The translations under genes were made by a program, and so were the position numbers. Below the pieces are notes generated by a model, which ran no database searches, was not told the DNA's origin, and was given only the letters and a program-made list of their open reading frames with translations. 64,000 nt of DNA from Gemmatimonadetes bacterium 2013_60CM_65_52 (GTDB taxonomy: Bacteria > Gemmatimonadota > Gemmatimonadetes > Gemmatimonadales > Gemmatimonadaceae), in the NCBI GenBank assembly GCA_002215645.1, contig NGFI01000003.1, positions 1-64,000 of the forward strand. The letters are read 5' to 3'. Positions 48,653 through 64,000 of this stretch are shown piece by piece (positions within the stretch are counted from its first letter, which is position 1; each line of letters begins with the position of its first letter).

Positions 48653-50128
48653 ATGCTCTTCAATTCGCTGCAGTTCGCGATCTTCTTTCCGATCGTCACG
48701 ATGTTGTACTTCGCGCTGCCCCATCGGGCGCGCGGAACGCTGCTACTGGTCGCAAGCTGCATATTCTACATGACGTTCGTGCCGGCGTACATCGTCGTGC
48801 TGTTCGTCACCATTCTCATCGACTACGTGGCGGCGCAGCGCATCGAGGCCACGCGCGGCGCAGCGCGGCGCGGCTGGCTGGTGGCCAGCATCCTCTCGAC
48901 GTGCGCCGTCCTCTTCATCTTCAAGTACTTCAACTTCTTCGCCGAGTCGGTCACGCTCACCGCGCGTGCGATCGGCATGGCATACATTGCGCCCGCGCTG
49001 AAGCTGATTCTGCCCGTCGGCCTGTCGTTCCACACGTTTCAGAGTCTCAGCTACGTCATCGAGGTCTATCGCGGGCAACAGCGAGCGGAGCACCATTTTC
49101 CGAAGTACGCGCTCTACGTGATGTTCTATCCGCAGCTCGTCGCCGGACCGATCGAGCGGCCACAAAACCTGCTCCATCAATTCGACGAGCCGCACGAGTT
49201 CGACTACGCACGGATCGTGTCGGGCCTCCAGCTCATGGCCTGGGGCTTCATCAAGAAGATCGTCGTCGCCGACCGCCTCGCCGAGCTCGCCAACAGGGTA
49301 TATGACGCGCCAGAGCAGTATTCGGGCCTTCCGCTCATCGTCGGAACGCTCGCGTTTGCCTTCCAGATCTATTGCGACTTCTCCGGATACTCCGACGTCG
49401 CCATCGGGGCGGCGCAGGTGATGGGCTTCCGGCTGATGCGCAACTTCGACCGCCCGTACTTCTCGCACAGCATCTCGGAGTTCTGGCGGCGCTGGCACAT
49501 CTCACTCTCCACCTGGTTCCGCGACTATGTGTACGTACCCCTTGGCGGCAACAGGGGGACCCTCGCGCTTCGGGTGCGCAACCTGTTCATCGTGTTTCTC
49601 GTCAGCGGCCTGTGGCATGGCGCGCGATGGACGTTCGTCGTGTGGGGCGCGCTCCATGGCATCTACCTCATCGCGTCGATCCTCACGGCTGACCTCCGTG
49701 CACGGCTCCGTCACGCCGTGGGGCTCGATCGCGTCCCGTCGCTGATGCACGTATGGCAGACGGGAGCGACGTTCGTGCTGGTGTGTGTCGCGTGGGTCTT
49801 CTTCCGCGCAACGTCGCTGCATGATGCGTGGTACGTCGTCACACACCTCTTTGCGGGAGTTCCATCGCAGCTTGCACAGATTGCAACCGATGGTGGGGCT
49901 CGCGCGCGACTTCTGTTTCTCGGCTTTGAGCCATCGCGGCTGGTGCTCGGGACTGCCGCCGTGGTGGCGCTGCTCGCCATGGAACACGTACAGCGCTCCG
50001 GCTCCGTTCGTGCGCGGCTCGCCACGGCGCCCGTGGCATTTCGCTGGACCGCATACTCCGTCGCCGTGCTGCTGATCATGACGCTCGGCGTCTTCGGCAG
50101 CACCAAGTTCATCTACTTCCAGTTCTGA
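48653..50128 (+). CDS. MBOAT-family membrane O-acyltransferase (AlgI-like)
   Basis: 491 residues with about 11 hydrophobic segments. The MBOAT signatures are present: FWRRWHISLSTWFRDYVYVP and the active-site His in LWHGARWTFVVWGALHG. AlgI/WssH/DltB-type proteins pass acyl groups across the membrane to a periplasmic partner that acetylates a polysaccharide. The SGNH-like gene starts two bases after its stop codon and is the natural partner. Confidence 0.92.
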   Translation: MLFNSLQFAIFFPIVTMLYFALPHRARGTLLLVASCIFYMTFVPAYIVVLFVTILIDYVAAQRIEATRGAARRGWLVASILSTCAVLFIFKYFNFFAESVTLTARAIGMAYIAPALKLILPVGLSFHTFQSLSYVIEVYRGQQRAEHHFPKYALYVMFYPQLVAGPIERPQNLLHQFDEPHEFDYARIVSGLQLMAWGFIKKIVVADRLAELANRVYDAPEQYSGLPLIVGTLAFAFQIYCDFSGYSDVAIGAAQVMGFRLMRNFDRPYFSHSISEFWRRWHISLSTWFRDYVYVPLGGNRGTLALRVRNLFIVFLVSGLWHGARWTFVVWGALHGIYLIASILTADLRARLRHAVGLDRVPSLMHVWQTGATFVLVCVAWVFFRATSLHDAWYVVTHLFAGVPSQLAQIATDGGARARLLFLGFEPSRLVLGTAAVVALLAMEHVQRSGSVRARLATAPVAFRWTAYSVAVLLIMTLGVFGSTKFIYFQF

Positions 50129-50129
50129 C

Positions 50130-51401
50130 GTGGCGCGTCACGGAGCGGGGGCACTTCTCGTCCGCTGCACCGCGCTCTGCGCGGTGGCGCTGCTGCCTGT
50201 CGCATTCAACGCATGGATCGACCCGGCGCGCATACTCGGCGCACCCGCCGACGAGCGCGCCATCGTTCGGGCACTCGTGGAAGGACATTACGTCACCGAT
50301 GTCATGAACTACGATGATCGGGCGATCGAGCGCTTGCTGGCGGAGTCGCGCGTTGGGGCGCCCGATATCCTTGCGATCGGATCGAGCCGCTTGCAACCAC
50401 TCGACGCCAGCGCGTTCCCCGGCCGGCATTTCGTGAATGCGTCGCTCGCGAACGGCCGCCTCGACGACATGCTGGGCATTTATGCACTATATGATACGAA
50501 TAGTCGCCGCCCGCGCCGTCTGGTCGTGAACCTCGATCCATGGACGCTGCGGAACGATCGGTCCGGCGCCCTCTGGCGCTCGCTGCTGGAGAGTCGCGAA
50601 GCGATGTTCGATCGACTGGATCTCCCGCACTCGGCGCTGCGCGATCGGATCGCGCTCGATGTGGGCGCGTGGAAGCGGCTGGCGTCGCCGGAGTATTTTC
50701 GTCTCGCCGTGTTCTCGTTCCGGCACCATGGCACGCGGGGGCTGCATTACACCGTCACGGACCGGGCGCAGAACGTGGAGAAAACCAAGGCGCCCGACGG
50801 CTCCATCGTCTGGCTTCCGTATTCGGAGCGGGAGACCAACCGACTCGCAGCGGAGTATGCGGCGCAGGTGCGGGATCACACCGCCATGTACGATGGACGT
50901 GAGTCCTTCAATACGTCGGGCATGGATGTCCTCGAGCGGTTTCTCCGCTACGTGCGACGCGAAGGGGTGGAAGTGGATCTCCTCATGGCGCCATTTCATC
51001 CGGTGGTGTACGCGGAGCTTGCGAAGGTGTCGCCGAACCGGCTCGTCGAAGCGGAGCAACGATATCGCGAGCTCGCCGCGCGCGTCGGCGCACGTGTCAT
51101 CGGCGGGTTCAATCCGGCTGCGACGGGCATGACGGCGCGCGACTTCTTCGACCAGTCGCACATGCGTCCGGAATCCCTGGCACGGCTCGTGGCAGCATCG
51201 ACGACACACCAGCAGTACCAGGAAGGAACTCCAGTATCCTGTACCCGGCACTCGGTCAACACCGTATCCGGTAGAGGTGGTTTTCGTCGGCGCCGTTCGT
51301 CGGTCTGCGCGTTATTCGGCGTTAACAGCCGCTTCGGCGGTCGGTACCGGATACGTCGTTTTACCGAGTGCCGGATACAGGATACTGGCCTTCACTACTG
51401 A
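50130..51401 (+). CDS. SGNH/AlgX-like polysaccharide O-acetylation partner
   Basis: 423 residues from GTG 50130. An N-terminal membrane anchor (LLVRCTALCAVALLPVAFNAW) precedes an extracytoplasmic domain with DILAIGSSRLQPLD (Ser85/86, block I) and DFFDQSHMRPES (Asp341xxHis344), the SGNH catalytic set. It follows the MBOAT gene by one base. The last 57 residues or so (from about 51228) are read from the dispersed repeat and end CRIQDTGLHY; they are unlike the rest and probably not part of the ancestral protein, whose natural end would be near residue 365. Confidence 0.8.
   Translation: MARHGAGALLVRCTALCAVALLPVAFNAWIDPARILGAPADERAIVRALVEGHYVTDVMNYDDRAIERLLAESRVGAPDILAIGSSRLQPLDASAFPGRHFVNASLANGRLDDMLGIYALYDTNSRRPRRLVVNLDPWTLRNDRSGALWRSLLESREAMFDRLDLPHSALRDRIALDVGAWKRLASPEYFRLAVFSFRHHGTRGLHYTVTDRAQNVEKTKAPDGSIVWLPYSERETNRLAAEYAAQVRDHTAMYDGRESFNTSGMDVLERFLRYVRREGVEVDLLMAPFHPVVYAELAKVSPNRLVEAEQRYRELAARVGARVIGGFNPAATGMTARDFFDQSHMRPESLARLVAASTTHQQYQEGTPVSCTRHSVNTVSGRGGFRRRRSSVCALFGVNSRFGGRYRIRRFTECRIQDTGLHY
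51231..51388. repeat. Dispersed palindromic repeat, inverted pair (copies C and D)
   Basis: Arm C (51231-51273) runs CCAGTATCCTGTACCCGGCA, then CTCGGTCAAC and ACCGTATCCGGTA. Arm D (51345-51388) is its reverse complement with small changes, TACCGGATACGTCGTTTTAC to GGATACTGG. The 71-base loop between is specific to this locus. The same sequence occurs singly at 19672 and 24095. A 16-bp direct repeat (CACTACTGATCCTCGT, 51393 and 51409) follows arm D. Confidence 0.8.
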
Positions 51402-57532: not shown

Positions 57533-58654
57533 ATGCCGAAGCGAGTCGCGCCACAACTCTTGTTCTCAGGCTTTCTGCTGCTCTTTGCCTGCCGCGAGCG
57601 GGCGCCGCTGCGTATCGGAGTGGTACTCGACCCGGATGGTCTGCGCGGCGCGGTCATGGCGGCCGATGATCTGAACGCCGGCGGCGGAATAAACGGACGG
57701 CGGCTGGAGCTCCGCGTGGTCAACGGGCTCTCCAGCACATCCGCGAAGGACGCCCTCACGGCCGCGGAGAGTCTCGCCACCGACGCAACGATTCTTGCAG
57801 TGGTCGGGCACACGAACAGCAACGCGAGTCTCGCCGCCTCGCAAGTGTACAACGAACGGCACGTCGTTCAGATCGCGCCGACGTCCACGGCGCCTCTCTA
57901 CAGCCACGCCGGCCCGTACAGCTTTCGAATGGTTCCCAGTGATCTGTATCAGGGAGAATTCCTCGCGAAGGTCGTGGCGGGCGACTCGCCGCATCCGCGT
58001 GTCGCAGTGCTGTACGAGAACGACGACTACGGGCGGAGTCTGCGTGGCAGGCTGGCGGAGGAGCTTGCCGTCAGGGACATTCAGCCGGTCTATGACGCCC
58101 CCGCCAGCGTGGTCGACGCCATCACCGACATCCCGGACATCGCGCAGGCGGTCGTGCGCGCACGGCCCAACCTGATCGTGTGGATCGGGACCGAGGGCGA
58201 GCTGCGTCAACTGCTTGCGGTGGTGCAGCGGTCGATTCCCCATGTGCGGGTGGTGGCGAGTGACCGCTTCAGTGTGCCGAGACCGCACGAGCCGAATGCC
58301 CAGGTTCTGTATGGCGTGCGGTACGTTCGATTTCGCGCCGCCGACGCGGCCTCGCCCGCAACACGCGCGCTGACCGCCCGGTACGAGCGACAGTTCCACG
58401 ATGAGCATTCGGACCAGTTTCTGCTCGCGTACGACGCGGTGCGCCTGCTCGCCACGGCCATCACCGCGGTGGGCACGGAGCGCGGCGACATTCGGGACTA
58501 TCTCGCGGGTGTCGGCACCTCACGGCCCGCATTCGCGAGTCTGGACGGTCCGCTTCGGTTCGACGCCAACGGCGATCCGCCGCCCGGATATCATCTCGCC
58601 GAGGTAACGTCCAAGGGGTCTCGTCCGATACCCGACGCATGGTTGGACCAGTAG
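57533..58654 (+). CDS. Lipoprotein periplasmic binding protein (Leu/Ile/Val-type)
   Basis: 373 residues with lipobox LLFAC. The type I periplasmic-binding fold is evident: LRIGVVLDPDG, AVMAADDLNAGGGINGRRLEL, ILAVVGHTNSNASLAASQVY, and VAVLYENDDYGRSLRGRL. Such proteins normally feed ABC importers of amino acids or amides, but no permease or ATPase genes follow. The downstream histidine kinase gene overlaps it by 16 bases, so it more likely serves as the sensory input of that kinase. Confidence 0.88.
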   Translation: MPKRVAPQLLFSGFLLLFACRERAPLRIGVVLDPDGLRGAVMAADDLNAGGGINGRRLELRVVNGLSSTSAKDALTAAESLATDATILAVVGHTNSNASLAASQVYNERHVVQIAPTSTAPLYSHAGPYSFRMVPSDLYQGEFLAKVVAGDSPHPRVAVLYENDDYGRSLRGRLAEELAVRDIQPVYDAPASVVDAITDIPDIAQAVVRARPNLIVWIGTEGELRQLLAVVQRSIPHVRVVASDRFSVPRPHEPNAQVLYGVRYVRFRAADAASPATRALTARYERQFHDEHSDQFLLAYDAVRLLATAITAVGTERGDIRDYLAGVGTSRPAFASLDGPLRFDANGDPPPGYHLAEVTSKGSRPIPDAWLDQ

Positions 58655-60255
58655 ACGAGCGACGCCGGGGGGCACGCACGCTGCGCCGGATGATCACCAT
58701 CGTCGCGGCGGTGTTCGGGGTCGTCGCCACCGTGTCCGTGCTCGCCGTGGCGCACCTCTCGCGCTCGCTCGGCAATGAGCTGGATCGCACGACGGAGCAA
58801 CTCATCGACGAACAGCGAATCGCGGACCAGATCGTCAGCTCTTCCTACGGGCAGCAGCTCGCCGCGTATCGCTATCTGGAGAATCCGAGTGCGGGAACGC
58901 TGGCGGAGTTCCGTGACGGTGGCGCACAGGCGTATCGGGGCATCAGGAAATACCTGTTTCGTTCCATGCCGCTCGAGGCCAGGTTGCGGGTCGAGGGGAT
59001 CAAGGAAGCGCACGAAATCTTCGAGGTGGCCGCGCAGCGCGCTTTCGATCTTGCGGCCAGCGGCGAGCCGGCGCGGGCGCGCGCCCACATGGTCACGCTC
59101 TCCCGCGACGCGGCGCTGCTCGAGCGCGCCGTACAGCGCTTCCTTGCGGTGCGTGAGCATCAACGGCAAGAGCTCCGCGAAAGCGAAGAGATGTGGCTCA
59201 CGCGGCTGCAGTACGCCAGCGTGGCGCTGGCCGCTGCGCTGATCGTCGCCGCCGTGATGCTCGCGGTGCTCCTGCATCGGCGCGTGACGACGCCGTTGAG
59301 CGATCTCTCCGTGGCGGTGCGGGCGTTAGCCGCGGGGAGGGATGACGCGCGCGTGCCGCCGCAGCGATTCGCCGAATTTCAGCTGCTCGGCACGGCCTTC
59401 AACGAGATGGCGGCGAGCATCCGCCAAGCGCGGATCGAGTCGCAGATCCGCAATGCGGATCTGGAGCGGGCGCTCGCGGACCTGCAGCGGGCACAGCGCG
59501 CACTCGTGCAGCACGAGAAGCTGAGCGCCGTCGGTGAGATGCTCGCCGGACTCGCACACGAGTTGAACAATCCCCTCGCCGGCATCCTCGGCGTCGCCGA
59601 ATGTCTGCAGATGGAGATGTCGGGCTACCCGGATCCGGCGGTGCAGGAGCTCGCGACCTCACTGGTGGATCCGCTGGTCGCGGAATCACTGCGCGCGCGC
59701 GACCTGGTGCGGAACCTTCTCAATTTTTCGCGGGAGGCGGCCACGCAGCTCGAGAGCGTGCATCTCGCCGACGCGATGAACGTGGCGGTCGGCCTCAGGC
59801 GGCACGCATTCGTGCAATCGCAGAAGCAGTTGGAGATCTCCGTGCCCGACGATCTCTACGTGTCCGCGCAGCCACAGAAGCTCGAGCTCGCGATCATGAA
59901 CGTCGTGAACAACAGCCTCGACGCACTGAACACGGGCACAGGTACGATGCTTCGCGTCGCCGCTGCGCGTGAGGAGGAGGATGTCGTGGTCACGTTCGAG
60001 GACGACGGCCCCGGCTTCGTGCACTCCGACCGGGTGTTCGACCCATTCTACACGACCAAACCCGTGGGGTCTGGCACGGGCCTGGGCTTGTCGCTGGTGC
60101 ACAAGTTCGTGCAGGAGTTCGGCGGCGTGGTGTTCGCGGAGAGCGCGCCGGTTCGCGGCGCGCGGCTCGTCATGCGATTGCGTGCGACGGAACCTTCGGC
60201 ACGCGAAGAAGGAGCAGACGCGGCGCGTGTGTCGGAGGCGGCGCTGGCGGGATGA
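58639..60255 (+). CDS. Membrane sensor histidine kinase with HAMP
   Basis: 538 residues. TM1 (VAAVFGVVATVSVLAVA) and TM2 (VALAAALIVAAVMLAVLL) enclose a helical periplasmic region of about 150 residues. A HAMP domain and coiled coil lead to the H-box GEMLAGLAHELNNPLAGIL (phospho-His) and an ATPase with NVVNNSLDAL, EDDGPGF and GSGTGLGLS. The start overlaps the binding-protein gene, implying a coupled sensory pair. No cognate response regulator is adjacent. Confidence 0.93.
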   Translation: MVGPVDERRRGARTLRRMITIVAAVFGVVATVSVLAVAHLSRSLGNELDRTTEQLIDEQRIADQIVSSSYGQQLAAYRYLENPSAGTLAEFRDGGAQAYRGIRKYLFRSMPLEARLRVEGIKEAHEIFEVAAQRAFDLAASGEPARARAHMVTLSRDAALLERAVQRFLAVREHQRQELRESEEMWLTRLQYASVALAAALIVAAVMLAVLLHRRVTTPLSDLSVAVRALAAGRDDARVPPQRFAEFQLLGTAFNEMAASIRQARIESQIRNADLERALADLQRAQRALVQHEKLSAVGEMLAGLAHELNNPLAGILGVAECLQMEMSGYPDPAVQELATSLVDPLVAESLRARDLVRNLLNFSREAATQLESVHLADAMNVAVGLRRHAFVQSQKQLEISVPDDLYVSAQPQKLELAIMNVVNNSLDALNTGTGTMLRVAAAREEEDVVVTFEDDGPGFVHSDRVFDPFYTTKPVGSGTGLGLSLVHKFVQEFGGVVFAESAPVRGARLVMRLRATEPSAREEGADAARVSEAALAG

Positions 60256-60674: not shown

Positions 60675-61565
60675 TCAGTCCGGTGACAACGCGCTCAGCT
60701 GTTCCTCGACGAGTCGGCGCTCAACGGGCAGGTTGGCGGACTCTGCCACAGTAAAGGCGTGCGCGAGGCAGACGCGTGCCGCGGCCGGCTCGTGCCGCTC
60801 GGAGGCAATGACCGCGAGCTGCATCAGGCATCGGACGCGTTGCGAGGGAACGTCGGCAATGGTGAACTGCCCATAGGCGGTGGTGATGCGTTCCTCCGCC
60901 TCGCTGGCGAGCCCGAGCGCTGCGAGCGCGATGCCGAGGTTCAGTTGGGCGCCGGCAAGCATCTCGAGATCGCCCGCCTGTCGCGCTTCGTTGAGCGCCG
61001 CCTCGAGCGTTTCACGAGCGGAAGCGAGCTCGCCACGGTCCATCTGCAGCCGGCCGATGTTGAGCAGCGACACGGCCTCACCGCGCTGGTCGGTGGCGCC
61101 CCGATATGCGTCGCGCGATTCGGTGAAGAGGCGCTCCGCTTCGTCGAAGTCACGCGCTTCCGCGGCGAGACTGCCGAGGTTCTGGAGTGCCTTGGCGCGC
61201 GTGGCCGGCGTCATCGCCAGATCCAGGATGCGCGTGAAGAGCGCGCGCGCCTGGCCAGATTCGCCGCGCGCCCACCAGACGGCGCCTTCGATGTTCAGGG
61301 CGTTGGCTTCGATGTCCCGCCACCCATGCTCCCGCGCCAGCGCGGCGCCGCGGTTCGCGGCGGCGAGCGCGTCCTCCCATCTCGAGTGGAGGCGATGCAC
61401 GTTGGCGAGGTGCCACCACGCTTCGGCCGCCGCCGCGGGGTGTGAGTCAGCGCGTTCGGTGACCGCCTCGAAGCACTCGCGTGCGCGCTGCACGACACCG
61501 TTGCGCTCGTAGCGAATGCCGTCGGCGAGAAGCTCCGAGACGGGCGCTTGAGACGTATCCGACAT
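60675..61565 (-). CDS. Tetratricopeptide-repeat protein
   Basis: 296 residues, entirely helical, with about six TPR-like units (WWHLANVHRLHSRWEDALAA, ALQNLGSLAAEARDFDEAER, SLLNIGRLQMDRGELASARE, AQLNLGIALAALGLASEAEE). No signal peptide or membrane segment, so cytoplasmic scaffolding is likely. It follows the PilT-like gene by 56 bases on the same strand and is probably co-transcribed, suggesting a partner role. Confidence 0.8.
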   Translation of the reverse strand: MSDTSQAPVSELLADGIRYERNGVVQRARECFEAVTERADSHPAAAAEAWWHLANVHRLHSRWEDALAAANRGAALAREHGWRDIEANALNIEGAVWWARGESGQARALFTRILDLAMTPATRAKALQNLGSLAAEARDFDEAERLFTESRDAYRGATDQRGEAVSLLNIGRLQMDRGELASARETLEAALNEARQAGDLEMLAGAQLNLGIALAALGLASEAEERITTAYGQFTIADVPSQRVRCLMQLAVIASERHEPAAARVCLAHAFTVAESANLPVERRLVEEQLSALSPD

Positions 61566-61621
61566 GTCGCGCTCGAGTCAGCTGCGGGGCACCGCGTATG
61601 CCGCCATGCGGCGCGCGTGCG

Positions 61622-62812
61622 TTACCGCGAGCCTCGAAGCTGGAGCTCGAGGTCGAGCGGGTTTGCGGCCAGCTTGATGGCCATCTCGAACGAGACTTCT
61701 CCGGCGAGCACGAGATCCGCCAACGATTGGTCGAACGTCTGCGTGCCGTACTGGTCGCGACCCTTCCGCAGCGCATCGTTGAGGTTGTCGAACGAGCCCG
61801 CGTCGAGGACGGACTCGCGAACGTACGGTGTCATGTACAGGAGCTGTGTCGCGAGCACCCGGCGTCCGCCGGTGAGCCTGGGCACCAGCTTCTGTCCGAC
61901 GACACAGTGCAGCACTTCGGCGAGACGCAGCCGCAGCGCCTGCTGATCTTCTCCCTCCATGCGCTGCAGCATCTGCCGGATGGCAGAGCCGGCGTCCGGC
62001 GCCTGCATGCGTCCGATGACGAGCCGGCCCGCCTCGACGGCGCGCATGGCGGCTTCCACCACGGAGTGCTCCTCCATCGCGCCGATGACGATGGCGTCGG
62101 CGTCCTGCATGATGGCGGATCGCACGCCGTCCTCGAAGGACTCCGTGTCGCTGCCCACCTCGCGCTGCGTCATGCTCCAGCGCTGGCTCTTGTGGAGATA
62201 CTCGATGGGCCGCTCCACGAGCACGCAGTGGCGCCGCGACGCCGAGGTGGTGTTCAGGTGGTTGATGAGGGCCGCGATGGTGGTGGAACGGCCCGATTCC
62301 GGCGCGCCACACACGAGAATGAGTCCCGCCTCGATCTTCGGGGCGTGCACGATGGCGCGCGGCAGGTTGAGCTGCTCGAACGTGGGCAGCACGTCGGAGA
62401 TGACGCGCATGACCACCATGAAGCTGGAGCGCTGCCGCAGGATGTTGGCACGAAAGCGACCGACGCCACGGACGCTCATCGAGCCCTCGAACTCCTTGAC
62501 GTCTTCCACGCGCTCCGAGGCGCCGTTGGATTCGAGGATGCGCGCGGCGAGCGAGCGTGTGTCCGCCGTGTTGAGCGTCGGGGTGTCGAGTGGTACCAGT
62601 ACGCCGTCGACACGCGCCTGCACGACGTCGCCCGCACGCACGTGAATGTCCGTGGCACCGAGGCGGACAGCTTCCTCGAGCAATGACTCAAACAGGAACT
62701 CGAAGGCACCGGGCTCGAATGCGGTCCGCGCGCGCGGACTCGGTTCACCGGGCCAGTTGCCTGCGGACTTCTGCTGCGGTGTCAAGTCGGTAACGGACAG
62801 GGTCTGCGCCAT
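61622..62812 (-). CDS. PilT-like type IV pilus ATPase homologue with degenerate active site
   Basis: ATG 62812 is the start (396 residues). The PilT order is kept: N-terminal GATDIHVRAGD, then the RecA-like core and the C-terminal TFDQSLADLVLAGEVSFEMA. The nucleotide-handling residues are altered: Walker A is GAPESGRST (Arg175 instead of Lys), the Asp box is VERPIEYLH (Arg201 in place of Asp), Walker B is IVIGAMEEH (Ala245 in place of the catalytic Glu), and the His box has Arg263 and Gln270 instead of two His. So it should bind or hydrolyse ATP poorly, if at all, and may act as a regulatory subunit. Confidence 0.88.
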   Translation of the reverse strand: MAQTLSVTDLTPQQKSAGNWPGEPSPRARTAFEPGAFEFLFESLLEEAVRLGATDIHVRAGDVVQARVDGVLVPLDTPTLNTADTRSLAARILESNGASERVEDVKEFEGSMSVRGVGRFRANILRQRSSFMVVMRVISDVLPTFEQLNLPRAIVHAPKIEAGLILVCGAPESGRSTTIAALINHLNTTSASRRHCVLVERPIEYLHKSQRWSMTQREVGSDTESFEDGVRSAIMQDADAIVIGAMEEHSVVEAAMRAVEAGRLVIGRMQAPDAGSAIRQMLQRMEGEDQQALRLRLAEVLHCVVGQKLVPRLTGGRRVLATQLLYMTPYVRESVLDAGSFDNLNDALRKGRDQYGTQTFDQSLADLVLAGEVSFEMAIKLAANPLDLELQLRGSR

Positions 62813-63136
62813 TCGAAGAAGTGAAGGCCGTCGGATCGGCTTGCACCCCGAGCGATCACGAGGCGAAGCGCATGCGCCCTGCGGCCATGCACCGCAGCGC
62901 AAAAGTGGAGGGACGTCGGAGCCGGACGGACAAAGTGCAGAACATCTACCGCCTACCGACCAGTAATTGACGCATGAGACCTTCTGCTGGTCAAATCGTC
63001 TCCGGATGAGTATATTTTTTCCGTTGAGTCCGGTCAATACATGTGACTGCGCTCACGATTCATCCCACATATGACTCGAAGCACGGCGGAGCGGCGACGC
63101 AGCCCATCCAGGCCGACCGGCGAGGCTGGAATCAGC
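62813..63136. other. 324-bp intergenic region between divergent genes
   Basis: No coding sequence is convincing on either strand. It holds AT-rich patches (TATATTTTTT at 63011-63020) and the CRP-like dyad described separately. TGGTCA (62988) and TATATT (63011) with a 17-base spacer make a possible promoter for the + strand gene. Confidence 0.5.
63042..63057. promoter_or_regulatory. CRP/FNR-type binding-site-like dyad
   Basis: TGTGA-CTGCGC-TCACG matches nine of the ten conserved positions of the TGTGA-N6-TCACA CRP site. It lies about 80 bases before the sugar-transferase start and downstream of a possible promoter. The regulator is not in this window, so the assignment is by pattern only. Confidence 0.4.
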
Positions 63137-64000
63137 ATGAATCGTAGCGCCAGCACTCCGGACGCTCCCACGCCCGCGTCTCCCGACGGCGGGCGCGATT
63201 CCCAGTCGATTCCGGCGCAGCAGCTCGTCTCGCGGCTCGAGGCGCGCCAGCATGTCCTCGCGCTACAACGCCGCCGATTCTGGCGCGAGCTTGCGTTCGC
63301 CTTCGCGATTCTCGCCGCCGACGCGCTGACCATCGCGGTCGTCTTCGTGCTGCTCGCGCGGATTCCGATGCGCGTCGATCCGTTGCACGCGGAGTTCGTG
63401 AAAGGGCTCATCCCAACGAACCCGCCGGCACTGCTCCGCCGCATCACGCTGCTGTTGTTCTGTCTCACGGCAACACGGGCATACTCCCAGAGCCAGCACG
63501 GAGAGCAGCGCGACCGTATCGCGCTCGCCATCGTGCTCGGCATCGTGCTCCCGCGCTGGACGGAGCTCCTTACGACGCAGTTCGTCCCACGCGTGACGGT
63601 GATCACGGCGGTCGTCCTGCTGCTGTGGCTCGCGCTGGTGCTGCAGCGCCGCGCGGCGTCCGTCGCCATGCAGACGTTCGACCCCCGCCGGCTGGACCAG
63701 GAGCGGACCCTGCTCGTCGGCTTGCGCCAGCAGCTCAACACCTTCCTCCGCGAGCAGGTGGATCACAGTGCCCCATCGCCGTCGGTGTATGAGATAGCGC
63801 CCGAGTGGCCGCGCGAGCAGCAGGAAAGCTGGCACATGCTCTATGAGGAAGTCCATGCGGCCAAGGCGGACGCGATCATTCTCGTCGGACCGCTGAGCGA
63901 CGACGCACTCCAGACGGTTCTCATCGCGGGGTCGAGCGCCGGATGTCGCGTGTTCGGTTTGCGGCGGCGGCCCCTGCGCGAGATGAACAATCCCACGCTG
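63137..64000 (+). CDS. Polyprenyl-phosphate sugar transferase (WbaP-like), N-terminal part
   Basis: Open from ATG 63137 to the window edge without a stop (288 codons). An N-terminal charged region is followed by four or so hydrophobic segments (FAFAILAADALTIAVVFVLL, ITLLLFCLTATRAY, IALAIVLGIVL, VVLLLWLALVL) and a Rossmann-like part with ADAIILVGPLSDDAL and AGCRVFGLRRRPL. This matches the N-terminus of undecaprenyl-phosphate glucose/galactose phosphotransferases. The catalytic C-terminus lies outside. It would initiate exopolysaccharide or glycan assembly at the inner membrane. Confidence 0.7.
   Translation, partial: MNRSASTPDAPTPASPDGGRDSQSIPAQQLVSRLEARQHVLALQRRRFWRELAFAFAILAADALTIAVVFVLLARIPMRVDPLHAEFVKGLIPTNPPALLRRITLLLFCLTATRAYSQSQHGEQRDRIALAIVLGIVLPRWTELLTTQFVPRVTVITAVVLLLWLALVLQRRAASVAMQTFDPRRLDQERTLLVGLRQQLNTFLREQVDHSAPSPSVYEIAPEWPREQQESWHMLYEEVHAAKADAIILVGPLSDDALQTVLIAGSSAGCRVFGLRRRPLREMNNPTL

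Follow-up and report, generated by a model that had tools for sequence, protein, structure and literature searches.

A predicted PilT-family pseudo-ATPase conserved beside an exopolysaccharide operon in Gemmatimonadaceae

The locus and its PilT-like gene

The stretch of DNA analyzed here (64,000 nucleotides; hereafter the window) comes from a 4.2-Mb genome of the family Gemmatimonadaceae. It carries a gene for a PilT-like protein, which we call pseudo-PilT, with a TPR protein gene on one side and the first gene of an exopolysaccharide (EPS) operon on the other (Table 1). The first-pass annotation of the window had recognized the protein as PilT-like and numbered its altered residues exactly (R175, R201, A245, R263, and Q270); it did not give the strand, which is minus. 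A 401-aa open reading frame lies antisense to the gene (window 61481-62686, plus strand). This is a shadow frame and an annotation trap, probably a consequence of high GC content at third positions.

Table 1. Features of the pseudo-PilT locus (window coordinates)
Feature	Position	Strand	Remarks
TPR protein, downstream of pseudo-PilT	60675..61565	-	adjoins only in the window's genus
Pseudo-PilT gene	61622..62812	-	396 aa; ATG start at 62812; stop included
C-terminal tail, residues 381-396	61625..61672	-	best conserved segment of the clade; candidate partner-binding motif
Degenerate HIS box, residues 262-271	62000..62029	-	GRLVIGRMQA; His263 to Arg, His270 to Gln
Degenerate Walker B, residues 241-246	62075..62092	-	IVIGAM; catalytic Glu245 to Ala
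ASP box, residues 199-205	62198..62218	-	VERPIEY; Asp201 to Arg; equivalent of Mg-coordinating Glu (E204) kept
Degenerate Walker A, residues 169-176	62285..62308	-	GAPESGRS; Lys175 to Arg, Thr171 to Pro
Trans-acting arginine fingers R121 and R136	62405..62452	-	equivalent to G. metallireducens PilB R271/R286; mapped via PilB
Intergenic region, pseudo-PilT/EPS operon	62813..63070		258 bp; divergent arrangement conserved
Polyprenyl glycosylphosphotransferase, first EPS-operon gene	63071..64000	+	529 aa; continues to contig position 64660

Profile and structure comparisons confirmed the PilT-like identity. Pseudo-PilT matched TIGR01420 with 291 bits (1e-86) over positions 2-341 of 343, below the curated cut-off of 319; one orthologue, that of G060, attains it (319.3 bits). 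PF00437 matched with 84 bits, and the Thermus PilT structure 5fl3 at 5e-73. Like the PilT and PilU proteins of TIGR01420, pseudo-PilT has the full-length domain order (N2D and RecA-like domains followed by the C-terminal region), and it keeps the QREVGxDT motif and the arginine fingers. It differs from them in that its clade has lost the Walker A Lys, the HIS-box His residues, and the QDP-D and MRD motifs, in that the window protein falls under the NCBIfam cut-off, and in the position of its gene at an EPS locus. A structure model built on an alignment of just two rows was of low quality (mean pLDDT 50) and carries no weight in the argument.

Pseudo-PilT was found in 29 of 179 Gemmatimonadaceae genomes (the window's included), distributed over five genera, the orthologues showing 48-76% identity. 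G056 carries a second copy; for G164 and G157, coordinates come from a genome search, not from gene calling. A profile of 20 members separated the pseudo-PilT group (at least 591 bits) from canonical PilT3 (at most 476 bits), the Gemmatimonadaceae paralogue that is its nearest relative at 43% identity. A tree of 54 proteins united the orthologues with divergent sequences of genus g36 (G115 and G117) in one clade (100/100) nearest to PilT3, and this clade and PilT3 grouped together against the other PilT-family paralogues (100/100). Nesting of the clade inside PilT3 was moderately supported (83/92); long branches meet within the clade. At a strict threshold, which g36-like divergent forms would escape, no pseudo-PilT was detected outside the family in a 395-genome sample of the phylum.

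The g36 genes (L095:5188-6633 and L097:7268-8503) encode SGRS in Walker A and a Ser in place of the first HIS-box His; they adjoin other OPX and Wzc genes and a membrane protein that looks, by its sequence, sterol-desaturase-like. In PilT3 (L089:9298-10494) and its orthologues the ASP-box Asp is usually an Asn (LENPIEFLH), and the genes otherwise look catalytically complete. In the window's genome, PilT3 lies among housekeeping genes, not pilus genes.

Catalytic residues lost and kept

Residue roles were taken from PilB structures (PMC5424180) and transferred through the PilB of the window's own genome (published residue numbers differ from the chain index by 20, as H413 and H420 confirmed); counts refer to 28 aligned orthologues. 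The 49 canonical paralogues from the same and related genomes share 75 invariant positions. The clade has lost 20 of these, mostly at Walker A, near the ASP box, within the HIS box, and in the LRQDP-D and MRD motifs. Every member of the group has Arg in Walker A and lacks both HIS-box His residues. K175R and H263R are each present in 28/28 orthologues, and His270 is lost in all 28; the normal Lys and His were not seen. Since positions 175, 263, and 270 are invariant or nearly so in the 49 canonical paralogues, these shared losses are not due to chance. Thr171 of Walker A is lost in nearly all orthologues, and Ser176, an Mg ligand, is replaced by Ala or Gly in 10 of them. Likewise lost are the ring-contact threonines: T327 and T411 of PilB have P171 and A261 as their counterparts.

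The claim that all key ATPase residues are replaced holds for Lys175, Glu245, and both His, but E204, R121, and R136 persist. The window protein has indeed lost the Walker B Glu (A245), but only 8/28 orthologues, itself and seven others, lack it, and the remaining 20 keep the residue. The change at Asp201 has little value as a marker, since Asn is the usual residue at this position in intact PilT3 paralogues. The Mg-coordinating E357 of PilB corresponds to E204, which is kept in 23/28 orthologues. PilB R271 and R286 are arginine fingers that reach the nucleotide of the neighboring subunit (PMC5424180); their equivalents R121 and R136 are invariant in 28/28 orthologues and are also kept in the g36 group. 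As judged from these alignments, the cis ATPase site of pseudo-PilT is broken and the trans site is whole, for which "all key ATPase residues" is too strong a description. Mean identity of the C-terminal tail is 0.97 in the pseudo-PilT clade versus 0.78 in PilT3.

The dN/dS ratio (Nei-Gojobori method) was 0.137 against the G009 orthologue, at a dS of 1.2, which is near saturation. Closer pairs within the clade gave 0.03-0.20, and PilT3 pairs gave 0.10-0.19. Because the clade values are like those of PilT3, we conclude that pseudo-PilT is, by prediction from sequence, a maintained pseudoenzyme. The reading frame is open in 30 pseudo-PilT loci. The earlier reading as a pseudo-ATPase and not a decaying gene was upheld: the same substitutions recur in the orthologues, and the gene is clearly under purifying selection. 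Decay or a sequencing error confined to the window is ruled out by the occurrence of the same substitutions in 29 genomes together with these ratios.

Association with an exopolysaccharide operon

The EPS operon encodes, in order, a polyprenyl glycosylphosphotransferase, OPX, a Wzc-type BY-kinase, a small membrane protein, and a Wzy-like protein. Pseudo-PilT is divergent from this Wzy-type operon in all 17 loci where the contig extends past its 5′ side. The first-pass annotation had pointed to nearness to an EPS starter enzyme; the association turned out stronger than that, a conserved divergent arrangement with the whole operon. This conserved setting is the main finding beyond that annotation.

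Wzc of the EPS-operon type (delimited by score, at least 504 bits, the next group reaching at most 420) is encoded in 29 genomes, 28 of which also have pseudo-PilT. There are two exceptions to this pairing. G007 has the EPS operon without pseudo-PilT, and therefore the EPS system can exist without it; in G064, which has pseudo-PilT, the contig ends before Wzc but includes the other EPS genes. Within genera g1, g13, g31, and g44, the two genes are present or absent together, with both absent in many members, so the association does not reflect one shared ancestor alone. The Fisher value for co-occurrence (2e-30) ignores relatedness and hence is not readable as a probability. About 10 kb from the operon (window 48653-51401) lie genes for an MBOAT/AlgI-like acyltransferase and then an AlgJ-like protein, so named by sequence appearance; these are possible polysaccharide O-acetylation genes.

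The other flank is less constant. The TPR protein, proposed earlier as a partner, does adjoin pseudo-PilT in the window's genus (G000 and G009), but this pairing is not general: in other genera its position is mostly taken by a CpsB/CapC-type phosphatase, which converges on pseudo-PilT in 12 loci, and in G007 the TPR gene persists, adjoining the transferase gene, although pseudo-PilT is absent. A general pairing with the TPR protein is ruled out by the confinement of this neighbor to one genus. No pseudo-PilT remnant was found by tblastn between the TPR and transferase genes of G007, which belongs to the window's genus. The sequence where the gene is missing (L091:4500-5000) is repeat-rich and offers a natural deletion for comparison. 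Elsewhere in the window (57533-60255), a gene for a Peripla_BP_6 periplasmic binding protein overlaps that of a HAMP histidine kinase, likely a sensor pair.

Proposed role and alternative explanations

Canonical full-length PilT-family genes number at least four in six of the seven genomes examined (four in the window's genome) and three in G129. Given this coexistence, pseudo-PilT is unlikely to be the retraction motor, and the place of its gene makes an EPS-linked signaling or adaptor role the most likely one. We propose that a PilT3 gene was probably duplicated within the Gemmatimonadaceae and that the resulting paralogue would have lost its cis ATPase site through replacement of the Walker A Lys, the ring-contact Thr, and the two HIS-box His. 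Its overall sequence and domain order, the arginine fingers acting in trans, and a C-terminal tail specific to the clade would have been retained, and the paralogue would then have been kept as a component of the Wzy-type EPS locus. Such a protein is predicted to hydrolyze no ATP, to be fixed in one motor-like conformation, and to connect the EPS machinery with the type IV pilus as a signaling or adaptor protein. To this explanation as a whole, a PilT3-derived, hydrolysis-dead signaling or adaptor paralogue of the EPS locus, we assign a probability of roughly two in three. That pseudo-PilT is a conserved PilT-family pseudo-ATPase tied to the EPS locus is the prediction from sequence comparison, and a pseudo-ATPase with an EPS-linked role is probable, although gene neighborhood is no proof of a functional link.

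The way of acting best backed by precedent would be a signaling conformation analogous to that of ATPase-dead Myxococcus PilB. In M. xanthus, PilB with a Walker A Lys-to-Ala change hydrolyzes no ATP and assembles no pili but still drives EPS production, and the apo form of PilB was proposed as the EPS signaling state (PMC5544727); in turn, the EPS machinery of Myxococcus affects pilus extension (PMC7484181). Both cases combine a pilus motor protein that is hydrolysis-dead (by prediction for pseudo-PilT) with EPS, the link here being one of neighborhood and co-occurrence. They differ in that the M. xanthus protein is a laboratory mutant of an extension ATPase with a c-di-GMP-binding N-terminal domain, whereas pseudo-PilT is a natural, separate PilT paralogue without that domain. 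Against the proposal, the Myxococcus precedent is PilB, not PilT. We suggest tentatively that pseudo-PilT could be a naturally evolved pseudo-motor whose catalytic site was discarded, so that it serves permanently as a signal or adaptor that ties type IV pili to a single EPS export system, as a natural counterpart of ATPase-dead PilB.

Pilus motors and EPS exert mutual control in several bacteria. The question whether motor proteins signal independently of their ATPase function has rested largely on laboratory mutants, and a naturally occurring motor paralogue, conserved over a long time with an incomplete ATPase site and set against an EPS operon, would make it directly testable. The searchable literature (open-licence papers) yielded no description of such a protein.

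A second way of acting, instead of signaling or alongside it, would be co-assembly with canonical PilT. The first-pass annotation had suggested a subunit of mixed hexamers or a scaffold, and the kept arginine fingers are compatible with this. Pseudo-PilT would join hexamers of canonical PilT, probably PilT3, give its arginine fingers to the neighboring subunit, and slow or stop retraction during EPS production. A role in mixed rings is possible because the arginine fingers are whole: the cis residues are lost and both trans fingers are invariant in 28/28 orthologues and kept in the divergent group, and the nearest paralogue, PilT3, occurs in the same genomes. A second precedent, which also favors the main proposal, comes from V. 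cholerae, where PilT whose Walker motifs are dead still allows retraction, provided that PilU is active (PMC6762196, PMC6821130). There a catalytically dead PilT works through an active paralogue, but these are engineered variants (and one natural variant) of the main PilT, with no EPS locus association. Against mixed rings, the PilT and PilU of V. cholerae assemble in vitro into homohexamers of their own, and the authors argue for the same in vivo (PMC6821130). About a quarter of the clade columns are invariant, so two kept arginines are weak evidence, and identity to PilT3 is only 43%. We regard mixed rings as a possible but somewhat unlikely explanation.

Pseudo-PilT might instead be an ATP-binding, non-hydrolyzing switch, in which Arg175 and E204 hold the nucleotide and the protein either reports nucleotide levels or is locked in the bound form. 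Hydrolysis-dead K-to-R forms of RecA-like proteins stay locked in a nucleotide-bound state. Nucleotide binding without hydrolysis is conceivable because the Lys-to-Arg change is constant: neither Ala nor Met replaces the Lys in any orthologue, and Arg also takes the place of His263 in 28/28 orthologues. With E204 kept and the Walker B Glu present in 20/28, nucleotide binding may survive. However, Ser176 is Ala or Gly in 10/28 orthologues, Thr171 is lost in nearly all, and a basic residue at position 175 may serve fold stability only. We consider the switch rather unlikely.

It is very improbable that pseudo-PilT is an unusual active ATPase with a rearranged site; the Walker B Glu and the ASP-box Glu are kept in 20/28 and 23/28 orthologues, but Lys, Glu, and both His are missing together from the window protein, and the E204A and H229A changes in Pseudomonas PilT abolish twitching motility (PMC6858323). 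A functionless gene in decay, as the empty site in G007 and the more extensive catalytic loss in the window protein than in most orthologues might suggest, is the least credible explanation, in view of the purifying selection, the open frames, the near-identical C-terminal tail, and retention across five genera. Further members can be sought by a signature of three motifs: SGR (Walker A), GR (HIS box), and GTQT (near the end).
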